DNA of 35,180 nt from a bacterium. GTDB lineage: Bacteria; Zixibacteria; MSB-5A5; GN15; FEB-12. Of the stretch, positions 24,762 to 28,086 are shown one piece after another. Under the pieces are notes generated by a model. It made no database searches. It was not told where the DNA came from and was given only the letters and a program-made list of their open reading frames with translations. Position 1 is the first letter of the stretch. The number at the start of each line of letters is the position of its first letter. The translations under genes were made by a program, and so were the position numbers. The stretch covers positions 1 through 35,180 of the forward strand of contig JAUWIB010000131.1 in assembly GCA_030605565.1 (NCBI GenBank). Direction: 5' to 3'.

Positions 24762-25011
24762 GGGGTGTAAGCTGGCAGATCAGCAAAACTTCCATCGCAC
24801 GGTCATTGCGGCAAATGGGCTTGTTGAAGAAGCTCCCATCCTTGTCTTTGCGAACGAGCCCGCCGCCGCCGGGCCAATCTCACACCATATGTCGCCCAAC
24901 GAATTGAGATTGCAGCGTTATCCTGGTTGTGCGCGAAGTGCAAGGAATCAGGTTTACTTGCCATTGAAGGAGCCCCACAAGCCCCAGGGTGACGTTACTT
25001 CCTTGCGAACG
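24762..25011. other. Convergent intergenic spacer with weak repeat traces
   Basis: This spacer separates priA from the convergent metallopeptidase gene. It holds a short inverted repeat, CAATCTC (24875-24881) and GAGATTG (24906-24912), and a GTCATTGCGG stretch reminiscent of common dispersed bacterial repeats. No gene with a ribosome-binding site and no strong terminator is seen. Confidence 0.3.
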
Positions 25012-26982
25012 TTACGGACAGGGCCAGGGTTCAGGGCCACCGGTAAACATGTAGTCCACCAGCCAGACCAGATCCGAGATGTCTACATCGTCATTGGGAT
25101 CGCCGGTGAGGGCGGCTTCCGCCATGCACGGCGGCTCCGGCCCACTAACGAACATGTAATCGACTAAATAGATCAAATCAGAGATGTCGATAGCATCAGT
25201 GGCGTCATAGTCCACGTTGCCGCGCATATCACCCATGCAGCAGCCTAAGTGAGTCGAGTCGCCGTGCTCATACCAGATATCACCCATCGCCACCGGGTGA
25301 CCAAGCGCCGGCTCTGTGAACCAGGCATCCCAGAACTCTTCGATATTGTCCGGGTGGTGTCCGCCGATCTTGCGGTCGTCATCCAACAGCGCCTCCAGAA
25401 TACCGAACATGCCGTCCGCAAGGGAGTCGCCTATGCTGTCAGCGGGTTGGCGAGGGAAAGTGAAATCGCCGAAGCTGTCGTAGTTATCGGGCGCGATATC
25501 ACAGATATCCCAGAGAATACCAGCCACAGCAGCCTCGCAACTGGTGCCGTAGTTGTTGGCGGAGTTAATCGGAATACCGTTCGGACTATGCTCGCCATTC
25601 TCTACGTTCAATTGATCGTAACTGTTGAAGTTGTTCCACCAGTTTCTCATGTGTGGGTCGTTGCCGACTACGGCTGACCAGAAATGACTGAATCCTTCGG
25701 CAGCTGCTAGCTCAAGTGAGTACAAGGAGTCCCAATAGTGTGTACCACCCTCACTTTCGTCGAAGAAATTGAAACAGTGGTAGGCCAACCAATGGCCATG
25801 TTCATGCAGAATGACGTGTTCATCATACGTATCCGGCGCACCCTTTAGAGGATAATCGGAGGTGTCTACCACAATGTGATCGGCCGTCAGCGGATTAGTG
25901 CCGTCGTAGTAGCTGCCGCATTGGTTGCCGAGGACAACTGGGCAGCTACCAATCTCCGTTCGAATGAACGTGCTATCCAGCCATGTCCGGTAGCCATCAA
26001 GCAACCTGTCGACAATGTGGAATGGTCCACTCTTGCTCACTGGTACAACGTACAGCCCGTAATCATAAGTGCCGCTCGCTACATTGTCTATCGTGGGTTC
26101 GCTATAGATGTGCCACTTGGGCAGGGTAGTGGCATTAGTCGTCACAAAGCCCGCATCATTGTGGGCGAAGATCTTCAGATAGATATCCTGGTGACCTGAT
26201 CCACCATAGTCGTTATTGGTGACTGTGTCGAACTGGAAAACGCCATCATCGTTGACGGTGGTTACAGCCAGAAAATCATCCTCGTCCCAGTCCTCATCCC
26301 ATAGTTGAACTTCAATATCTCTCATTGGAAAGTGGTTAGACGGACCTGGAAAGCGTGGGTTGTAGTAGTGCAACTCCCCGGTAACGACAAGGGTCGTATC
26401 TTCACCGACCTCGTAACAATGTGGTCCGTCCCAGGAAGGATAAAACGACCCCGCCTGGGCCACCGACCACTTCCAGATACCGGATGGCAGAAAGAAGGAG
26501 GAATCAAGACAGATCGTCTTGCCAACTGAGGCGGTCGCGATCGGGCCGATGGTTATAGTGTAGGCGGTGTCGTCAAACCACCAGGGGAGGCCGGTGTTGA
26601 AAAGTCGTGACCCTCCGAAGCCCACCGTATCGGCCCCGGAGCCGGTCTCACTGAAATAGTTGATCTGGAAGGTGAGGTCGAATCTCTCATCCCAGTTCAG
26701 AGTTGTCAGTGTATCACCCACCGTGCCGGACCAGGTAGCGCCGTCAGGTGAGTAAACACGGAAGCCGTTCATCATGCCGTCGACGTCATGGTAGGTGTTG
26801 TTGTCGATGTGCAGATAGAACGTGATCAATTGGTTGGTTGGCAACTTCCCTCCGCTGAGACCGTCAACTCCTGCCAGTGAGAACGCACCACTGCCGCGAG
26901 GTCCGTCTGGTGACTCAAGAGCTCCCTGTGTCTTAATTGTGTCGGTAGATGAATCGGGAGGGACGCTGTCAACGGGGGGGGG
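25012..26982 (-). CDS. Catalytic and dockerin part of a frameshifted secreted HEXXH metallopeptidase-like protein
   Basis: This frame carries the downstream part of a protein whose start lies in another frame at 27673. It joins at the C10 tract; its own open frame runs back to a GTG at 27072, but those residues are an out-of-frame reading of the upstream part. The middle contains LHEHGHWLAY (HEXXH, encoded at 25792-25806) and, about 25 residues on, LAAAEGFSHFWS, a plausible third zinc ligand as in gluzincins. A beta-rich region precedes it (TGELHYYNPRFPGPSNHFPMRDIEVQLWDEDW). The C terminus has two dockerin-like calcium-binding repeats (AIDISDLIYLVDYMF, DVDISDLVWLVDYMF). I cannot name a peptidase family, and activity is inferred from the motif. 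Confidence 0.72.
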   Translation of the reverse strand, partial: PPPVDSVPPDSSTDTIKTQGALESPDGPRGSGAFSLAGVDGLSGGKLPTNQLITFYLHIDNNTYHDVDGMMNGFRVYSPDGATWSGTVGDTLTTLNWDERFDLTFQINYFSETGSGADTVGFGGSRLFNTGLPWWFDDTAYTITIGPIATASVGKTICLDSSFFLPSGIWKWSVAQAGSFYPSWDGPHCYEVGEDTTLVVTGELHYYNPRFPGPSNHFPMRDIEVQLWDEDWDEDDFLAVTTVNDDGVFQFDTVTNNDYGGSGHQDIYLKIFAHNDAGFVTTNATTLPKWHIYSEPTIDNVASGTYDYGLYVVPVSKSGPFHIVDRLLDGYRTWLDSTFIRTEIGSCPVVLGNQCGSYYDGTNPLTADHIVVDTSDYPLKGAPDTYDEHVILHEHGHWLAYHCFNFFDESEGGTHYWDSLYSLELAAAEGFSHFWSAVVGNDPHMRNWWNNFNSYDQLNVENGEHSPNGIPINSANNYGTSCEAAVAGILWDICDIAPDNYDSFGDFTFPRQPADSIGDSLADGMFGILEALLDDDRKIGGHHPDNIEEFWDAWFTEPALGHPVAMGDIWYEHGDSTHLGCCMGDMRGNVDYDATDAIDISDLIYLVDYMFVSGPEPPCMAEAALTGDPNDDVDISDLVWLVDYMFTGGPEPWPCP

Positions 26983-27673
26983 GTAGCGTGTCGTCGAGTT
27001 GGCCTTCGACCATGCGGCCTTTGACACCTTCGACCTTGAGCTTGCGGAACTGCTCACGGGTGAGCCGTACACCGTAAAAGTGTTCCTGCTCCGTCGGTGT
27101 CAACTCGATCGGCAGACTCTTCACAAACTTGAGGCTTGCCTTTACGCGCAGGTCAAGGATGTACTCGTACAGAGTGCTGTCAAGCTGCAATTGAGTGGGT
27201 TGATCGCACGGTCGCAACTCAGTTACACCAATCCCGGGACGATAAGCAACTGGCCGACCGTGCCAGTATCCCACCGAATCACCTGTTGTAACGAAGGAGA
27301 GGATTGCATGGCCGGCATAGCCACAGCCGGCGATGTCCACCTGAATCAAACTTGTATCTTGGGGTGGAACATCTACCACCAAAGTCAACTCGGCCATCTC
27401 ATCGGCTCGCACACTGATTGTCTGGGGAACCCCACCGTCGTACCGCAGTTTCTCTGTAGCGATAGTGAGTTTCAAGTCTTCGCAGTCGAAGCCCGTCAGA
27501 ATGCTGAGCTTGAGTTCCTGTGAGCCTGCGGTCTTTGTTTTGCTCACCGGGTCGAGGCTTGCTCCGATTGGCAGTGCAGGCCAAGTCGCACGTGCCTTCT
27601 CGGTACTCAATCCAAACATCAAGACCACCAAGACGGCGGTCATGCATGGCCCTGTCTTTCTTAGTGAAATCAT
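26969..27673 (-). CDS. Signal-peptide and N-terminal part of the same frameshifted protein
   Basis: As sequenced this frame encodes 234 residues. They begin with a signal peptide (MISLRKTGPCMTAVLVVLMFGLSTEKARA) and end DDTLPPPR-stop just past the C10 tract. The body (LKLSILTGFDCEDLKLTIATEKLRYDGG...) looks like a beta-sandwich and is followed by a stretch ending LTREQFRKLKVEGVKGRMVEGQLDD. With nine or twelve C instead of ten, the frame continues into the catalytic part and gives about 886 residues. AAGGA lies ten bases before the ATG, and an in-frame stop just upstream fixes this as the first possible ATG start. The short form alone would be exported without catalytic or dockerin parts. Confidence 0.75.
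   Translation of the reverse strand: MISLRKTGPCMTAVLVVLMFGLSTEKARATWPALPIGASLDPVSKTKTAGSQELKLSILTGFDCEDLKLTIATEKLRYDGGVPQTISVRADEMAELTLVVDVPPQDTSLIQVDIAGCGYAGHAILSFVTTGDSVGYWHGRPVAYRPGIGVTELRPCDQPTQLQLDSTLYEYILDLRVKASLKFVKSLPIELTPTEQEHFYGVRLTREQFRKLKVEGVKGRMVEGQLDDTLPPPR
26974..26983 (-). other. C10 homopolymer tract at the reading-frame switch
   Basis: Ten G on the plus strand (C10 on the coding strand) lie exactly where the signal-peptide frame stops and the catalytic frame takes over. Removing one C restores one open frame. This may be a phase-variable tract, a slippage site, a true inactivating mutation or a sequencing/assembly error; a single sequence cannot tell. Confidence 0.8.
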
Positions 27674-27723
27674 TTCTTCTTGATCCTTTCATTTATGTTG
27701 TCCTTGCTGATAATGCGCGAGAT

Positions 27724-27735
27724 TCAAGACTCCAT
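27724..27735 (-). promoter_or_regulatory. Three-codon upstream ORF with a very strong ribosome-binding site
   Basis: AAGGAGGAG is followed after four bases by ATG-GAG-TCT-TGA, 51 bases before the metallopeptidase start. This is the best Shine-Dalgarno sequence in the region, yet it serves only a three-codon frame. It may be a leader mini-ORF, a remnant start or chance. It is out of frame with the downstream gene. Confidence 0.3.
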
Positions 27736-28086
27736 TGGCTCCTCCTTTCCATTCTGTTACAGGTTAAACCATAATAACTTCTCCATCTTCCCAAAAAAAG
27801 GCGCGTGTGGGGCTGCCTTCATCATTTGATATCACAGTCAGTACCGTATTGAAGCTGCATCTATTGGATACTGCTCTACAGTCTCGGTCGTTTACTCCCG
27901 TCACGTTGCTCGCGCTTGGTTTTGTTCCCGCCCAAATACACGCGCCACCACCCTTATTTAAAAGCAGTAAGTGTATTCTTCGTGTAATTTGATGTGTGTG
28001 TGGCCGTGAATGAAGACTCGGCCACCACAACGCGCACGAGGACATTTGGGTGCTGTCAGTCGTCACGAACCCGCTCGGCACACCAT
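27736..28086. other. Intergenic region without a recognisable gene
   Basis: This gap lies between rplY (which ends at 28144) and the metallopeptidase leader. It is visibly more AT-rich than its neighbours and contains an A7 run near 27790. A 105-codon minus-strand open frame (28081-27764) has a GTG start without a ribosome-binding site and no recognisable protein pattern. It probably holds the metallopeptidase promoter, but I cannot pick a convincing one. Confidence 0.4.

Follow-up and report, generated by a model that had tools for sequence, protein, structure and literature searches.

Does the run of ten C that divides a gene of a Zixibacteria genome between two reading frames act as a length-dependent switch of an exported enzyme, or does it reflect a miscounted homopolymer or a gene that is being lost? 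The gene is located on the minus strand of the window, i.e., the entire analyzed DNA stretch of 35,180 nucleotides. Its neighbours in the window, including priA, rplY (ribosomal protein L25) and prs (ribose-phosphate pyrophosphokinase), are full length. The named relatives of the organism assign it to Candidatus Zixiibacteriota.

Reading frames at the tract

The run consists of exactly ten C (26974–26983, minus strand) inside a reading frame and is directly followed by GTTGA; the C10 reading ends PPP-R-stop. The frame leading into the tract (N-part) starts with ATG at 27673 and ends with ...DDTLPPPR-stop at 26969 (234 aa), and the frame of the C-part is open from ahead of the tract down to the stop at 25012, confirming the split into two frames noted in a preliminary description of the sequence. 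Nine C would yield one protein of 886 residues in silico (230 + 3 + 653), as had been calculated; twelve C, for which the same length had been given, yield 887. Tract length sets read-through (in silico only): the C10 version stops at 26969 and the C9 version of the orthologue reads through.

The best explanation of this arrangement appears to be a single gene for an exported protein, the domains of which lie in two frames at C10. Two separate genes were excluded, since linker and domains are continuous across the tract in the sister-species orthologue and also in the intact relatives G043 and G072. Independent translation of the C-part was likewise rejected, the earliest start past the tract being an internal TTG without signal peptide. 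The following features were assigned (positions in the window):

27674–27960, minus strand: 5' leader with AGGAGG and a very short ORF (ATG at 27735), conserved in all four genus copies bearing the N-domain
26969–27673, minus strand: N-part ORF, 234 aa, putatively exported N-domain product of the assembled C10 state (from translation and family)
27587–27673, minus strand: signal-peptide-like segment MISLRKTGPCMTAVLVVLMFGLSTEKARA, read from the translation, with a predicted helix at residues 9–21
27260–27568, minus strand: Ig-like beta-sandwich domain, residues 36–138 (AF2 model, Foldseek, weak Pfam FixG_C match)
27011–27169, minus strand: small alpha/beta domain, residues 169–221 (AF2 model, pLDDT about 90)
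26974–26983, minus strand: C10 tract in the linker between N-domain and C-part, counted on the sequence
25015–26973, minus strand: C-part frame after the tract, 653 aa by translation, without other interruption; stop codon at 25012–25014
26464–26886, minus strand: cohesin-like beta domain, about C-part residues 30–170 (Foldseek cohesin matches)
26167–26331, minus strand: transthyretin-like domain, C-part residues 215–269 (Pfam TTR-52, Foldseek 3uaf)
25792–25806, minus strand: HEHGH zinc-binding motif (HEXXH), with His/Glu/His invariant in the family
25696–25698, minus strand: invariant Glu in the alignment, C-part residue 426, candidate third zinc ligand
25015–25227, minus strand: dockerin-like C-terminal repeats, two D-x-D-type segments (sequence; profile match 4fl4_A, E=0.0043)
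24969–24985, minus strand: 3' element GGGGCTTGTGGGGCTCC immediately after the stop codon; most genus copies examined are followed by it as well

Domain composition of the N- and C-parts

The AF2 model of the N-part (mean pLDDT 73) comprises the signal helix, the Ig-like sandwich (residues 36–138 mostly at pLDDT 70–91) and the small alpha/beta unit, which ends about ten residues ahead of the tract prolines. The sandwich matches the FixG-related structure 2r39 in Foldseek (TM 0.63 by target), the corresponding Pfam match (FixG_C) being weak. Judged by inspection of the signal-peptide-like N-terminus and by the model, the N-part product is predicted to be exported. The N-domain family is present in 36 of the 80 genomes of the order, in some of them stand-alone as an exported-type protein of 260–290 residues. 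One genome (G043) contains two tandem stand-alone copies, and one N-domain protein there has a C8 run at its end, which reads SPPPQ-stop.

The C-part model (mean pLDDT 72) shows, in this order, cohesin-like, transthyretin-like and thermolysin-like HEXXH domains and the dockerin-like repeats. Cohesin matches of the first domain reach TM 0.48–0.55 by target at moderate model confidence; the second matches 3uaf in Foldseek and Pfam TTR-52 with E=4e-4, under the gathering score of that family. For the HEXXH domain, Foldseek retrieved 4ow3 (E=2.4e-5, TM 0.58 by target, model mean pLDDT 72), with thermolysin and vibriolysin matches of the C-part ranging from TM 0.47 to 0.58 by target. H390, E391, H394 and E426 are invariant in eight aligned family sequences, and none of the Pfam and NCBIfam peptidase families matches the window protein above threshold. 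The dockerin profile match (4fl4_A) was obtained with the family alignment; Pfam Dockerin_1 is matched in three of eight family members, the window protein remaining below the Pfam threshold. By these similarities, the C-part would act as a peptidase and bind via its dockerin-like tail. HEXXH motif and downstream invariant Glu are shared with thermolysin-like gluzincins (M4 fold), to which the Foldseek match also points, whereas fusion to cohesin-like, transthyretin-like and dockerin-like parts sets the window protein apart from these.

The preliminary description had placed the break between a signal part and a catalytic/dockerin part. The position of the break at the tract holds, but the upstream part carries the Ig-like and the small alpha/beta domain besides the signal, and the downstream part begins with the cohesin-like and transthyretin-like domains.

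Genomes across the order each encode many copies of the cohesin-like beta domain (P0002 residues 63–222), beside dockerin-like tails; together they perhaps represent a cellulosome-like system of the Zixibacteria.

Tract in sister genes and relatives

Among the seven genomes of the genus, four gene copies keep the N-domain, two in the window genome (G000) and two in the sister species G001. Searching the genome contigs with a single protein retrieved no relatives, which were recovered with an alignment query. Two further copies of the window genome (contigs C49 and C91) end at the contig edge before the linker; not being scorable, they were left out.

In each of the four N-domain-bearing copies, a long C run lies where the N-domain gives way to the C-part. 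In contrast to the C10 of the window gene (out of frame), the sister-species orthologue (G001 contig C6) has nine C and is in frame across the tract (...DTLPPPVD...). The paralogue on G000 contig C52 has a run of eleven C (C52:26093–26103) with differing N- and C-frames; its shift could be narrowed down no further than to a segment of about 190 nt with the tract inside it, the frame of about 640 aa after the tract being otherwise fully open. Thirteen C, read identically from two contig ends (contigs C7/C18), put the second G001 gene out of frame, and this paralogue shares the off-frame ending CCCCGTTGA of the window gene. The off-frame stop context C(n)GTTGA is common to three copies. The contig C52 gene and the second G001 gene represent different lineages, since they are only 25% identical in the N-domain. 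In a more distant gene (G036 contig C99), the same boundary of the N-domain carries a C10 run that is in frame.

Across two species and three lineages of paralogues, the tract thus sits at one boundary and measures 9, 10, 11 or 13 C, as a slippage site of variable length would predict; these differences are between species and paralogues, with one genome per species. Since the paralogues carry the tract too, the observation is stronger than could be recognized from the window sequence. Because the paralogues share the leader and 3' elements, a single ancestral tract may have given rise to all of the tracts; the tract evidence may therefore represent retention, not independent origins. An uninterrupted orthologue free of the homopolymer, which the preliminary description had held to speak against a switch, is absent inside the genus, where tracts of C9–C13 are found instead.

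Frame breaks in this gene type recur across genera (L066, L067, L075, L077, L079, L080, L157, L225), mostly between the N-domain and the early C-part. Contigs C7, C18, C22 and C27 of G001 (L068, L067, L136, L138) have a long C run at their start or end, with a degraded tail rich in C; by their sequence, the poly-C contig ends of this genome are an assembly-breaking artefact.

Retention of the C run

Runs of C9 or longer are rare: the own genome (3.39 Mb) contains 15 and G001 contains 21, and by this density a coding-strand run of this kind in a given 150-nt linker has P of about 3e-4. Within the own genome, runs of at least C10 inside an identifiable gene were found only in the window gene and its paralogue. 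The other four runs of at least C10 were examined for genes, no convincing gene was found there, and they were dropped as further switch candidates. Non-coding runs of C10–C12 lie on contigs C4, C51 and C127. A chance homopolymer was ruled out by the recurrence at one boundary.

The spelling of the prolines points in the same direction. CCC makes up 23–25% of the Pro codons, and an all-CCC spelling of PPP is expected in 1.2–1.6% of cases; it was found in 4/4 tract copies versus 2/33 other poly-Pro stretches (Fisher P 2e-4). Between the own gene and the G001 orthologue, synonymous sites are saturated (pS 0.71–0.76) at dN 0.26–0.35, the C-part being under strong constraint (dN about 0.26). Outside the tract, these two genes use the same codon at only 10 of 33 conserved prolines, and just one of seven other CCC codons is kept. 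The pure-C run has therefore been retained, and its survival by chance is unlikely; on this evidence, it is conserved beyond coding need in all four genus copies.

A proposed slippage switch and its alternatives

The best fit to these observations is a slippage contingency locus resembling nalP/ausI of the meningococcus, a reading based on sequence and analogy that we hold with moderate confidence. The Pro linker would be encoded by an uninterrupted run of C, and slipped-strand replication would alter this run by one or more C. In-frame lengths (e.g., C9 of the sister species) would then yield the whole exported enzyme, and out-of-frame lengths (e.g., the assembled C10) only an exported N-domain with a stop two codons past the prolines. 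The tract would be kept because an enzyme that is costly or exposed at the surface profits from being switched at random. Since the C-part is constrained, the frames after the tract are otherwise open and neither own-genome copy has a second lesion, the out-of-frame state is recent or reversible. Slippage in living cells, its reversibility, selection for switching, export and peptidase activity are what we infer in this proposal. The on/off switch suggested in the preliminary description is thereby supported in part, namely by the break at the tract, the nine C of the sister orthologue and the four lengths at one boundary.

An error of tract length is unlikely but has to be taken seriously: in the cells the tract would be in frame and the enzyme intact, and the C run of the consensus would be off by one or two. 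Short-read assembly is unreliable at such tracts, and the sister orthologue is in frame at C9. Both contigs of one G001 copy end at the C13 tract, where the assembly broke, and further contigs of this genome also end in long C runs. Behind the C13 tract, the two contig ends match the true sequence at 35/54 and 17/24 positions, most of the wrong bases being C, a pattern typical of short reads that fail after a homopolymer. However, C9 runs in recognizable genes of the own genome (dnaJ, a dsbD-like gene, a pseudouridine synthase and a TPR protein gene) are in frame, indicating that calling at nine is not generally wrong. Moreover, the neighbouring window genes show no such damage, a miscount would be needed in both own-genome copies, and the conservation of the pure-C run would be left unexplained.

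Similarly unlikely is ordinary decay, in which the C run would merely be a mutational hotspot in a gene being lost, without a selected switch. Decay is a real rival, because relatives often have this gene family interrupted where there is no homopolymer. Among the genomes of the order, broken frames of this gene type were found in G001 (both copies), G036, G037, G053, G046 and G074; only the N-domain is left in G018, G015, G061 and G065, and the gene is intact in G043, G072, G040 and G077. Both G001 copies hold extra frameshifts outside the tract, and the breaks in G037, G053 and G001 contig C6 are at non-repeat sites. Since other genera have the gene broken without homopolymer or lack its C-part, it would seem dispensable. 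Against decay, the C-part is strongly constrained at saturated synonymous sites, neither own-genome copy has a second lesion (both lose the frame only in or near the tract), and a pure-C run kept in all four genus copies would not be expected. Some of the broken relatives are of low coverage (G036 about 3.8x, G046 about 2.8x) and may themselves be errors.

One may further speculate on a switch between two products, i.e., the full dockerin-type metalloenzyme and an exported stand-alone N-domain with a function of its own, with leaky +1 recoding at CCC-CGT-TGA providing low enzyme levels in the off state. A function of the N-domain alone is suggested by the stand-alone N-domain genes of relatives; this extended version is rather improbable.

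A PPP run would stall ribosomes (EF-P). Translational recoding as such, i.e., reading of C10 and C13 by a +1 shift of tRNA-Pro on CCC-C before the Arg codon and UGA with constant low output of full enzyme from the off genotype, is very unlikely: the +1 path at the junction CCC-CGT-TGA gives Pro-Val-Asp, exactly the downstream frame, and CCC-CGU-U is a sequence used in studies of +1 tRNA-Pro slips, but the rates of such slips, at most about 1% for the second codon in E. coli, are low at a distance from the start, +2 dominates for the UGG tRNA (PMC4519876), and the eleven C on contig C52 would need a different shift. No frameshift is required, because the C9 orthologue is in frame; the conserved need for a shift that would define a programmed +1 frameshift gene is accordingly absent.

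Comparison with known contingency loci

Returning to the slippage switch, nalP and ausI of the meningococcus encode secreted proteases switched by coding poly-C tracts (PMC5472700). The window gene would share with them an exported protease, a poly-C run within the reading frame whose length acts as the switch (here on sequence evidence) and an off state ending shortly after the tract. In contrast to these autotransporter serine proteases, the window gene encodes a predicted zinc (HEXXH) enzyme with a dockerin-like tail, its tract lies between domains, the off product would be an exported N-domain, and the case is known from assembled sequence. For Candidatus Mycoplasma girerdii, phase variation at mostly dinucleotide repeats was inferred from metagenomes and mixtures were proved by read counts (PMC5476646). 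Both cases propose repeat-length switching for an uncultured bacterium from genome-resolved data, the present one differing in that it builds on assemblies and comparative evidence.

A literature search for phase variation in Zixibacteria retrieved nothing relevant. To our knowledge, no contingency locus has previously been reported for this phylum; repeat-length switching is best known in host-associated pathogens and commensals. The locus suggests a known mechanism in a new phylum and gene family. If the proposed switch is real, control of a secreted enzyme by repeat length would also occur in an uncultured phylum of sediment or soil, implying that phage, predators, the expense of exported enzymes or similar pressures act there. 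Two warnings for metagenome assemblies would follow: gene callers divide genes of this kind, and poly-C sites break the assembly itself.

Flanking elements and probable gene conversion

The 5' leader with AGAAAGGAGGAG..ATG and the short leader ORF was found in the window (27674–27960) and at L065:5083–5364, L066:4760–5050 and L068:4160–4454; within the genus it occurs only ahead of these genes. An Rfam search of the leader gave no match, and it is possibly an unrecognised regulatory element. At the other end of the gene, the 3' element GGGGCTTGYGGGGYTCC (24969–24985) recurs after the stop of most genus copies examined.

The 3' ends of the window gene (24928–25401) and of the paralogue on contig C52 (L065:7635–8101) share 82% DNA identity over 478 nt. 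The proteins have about 60 near-identical residues at this end, and elsewhere about 48% identity. Judging from the sequences, gene conversion is the likely origin of this similarity. The copies on contigs C49 and C91 are 93% identical over 326 nt.
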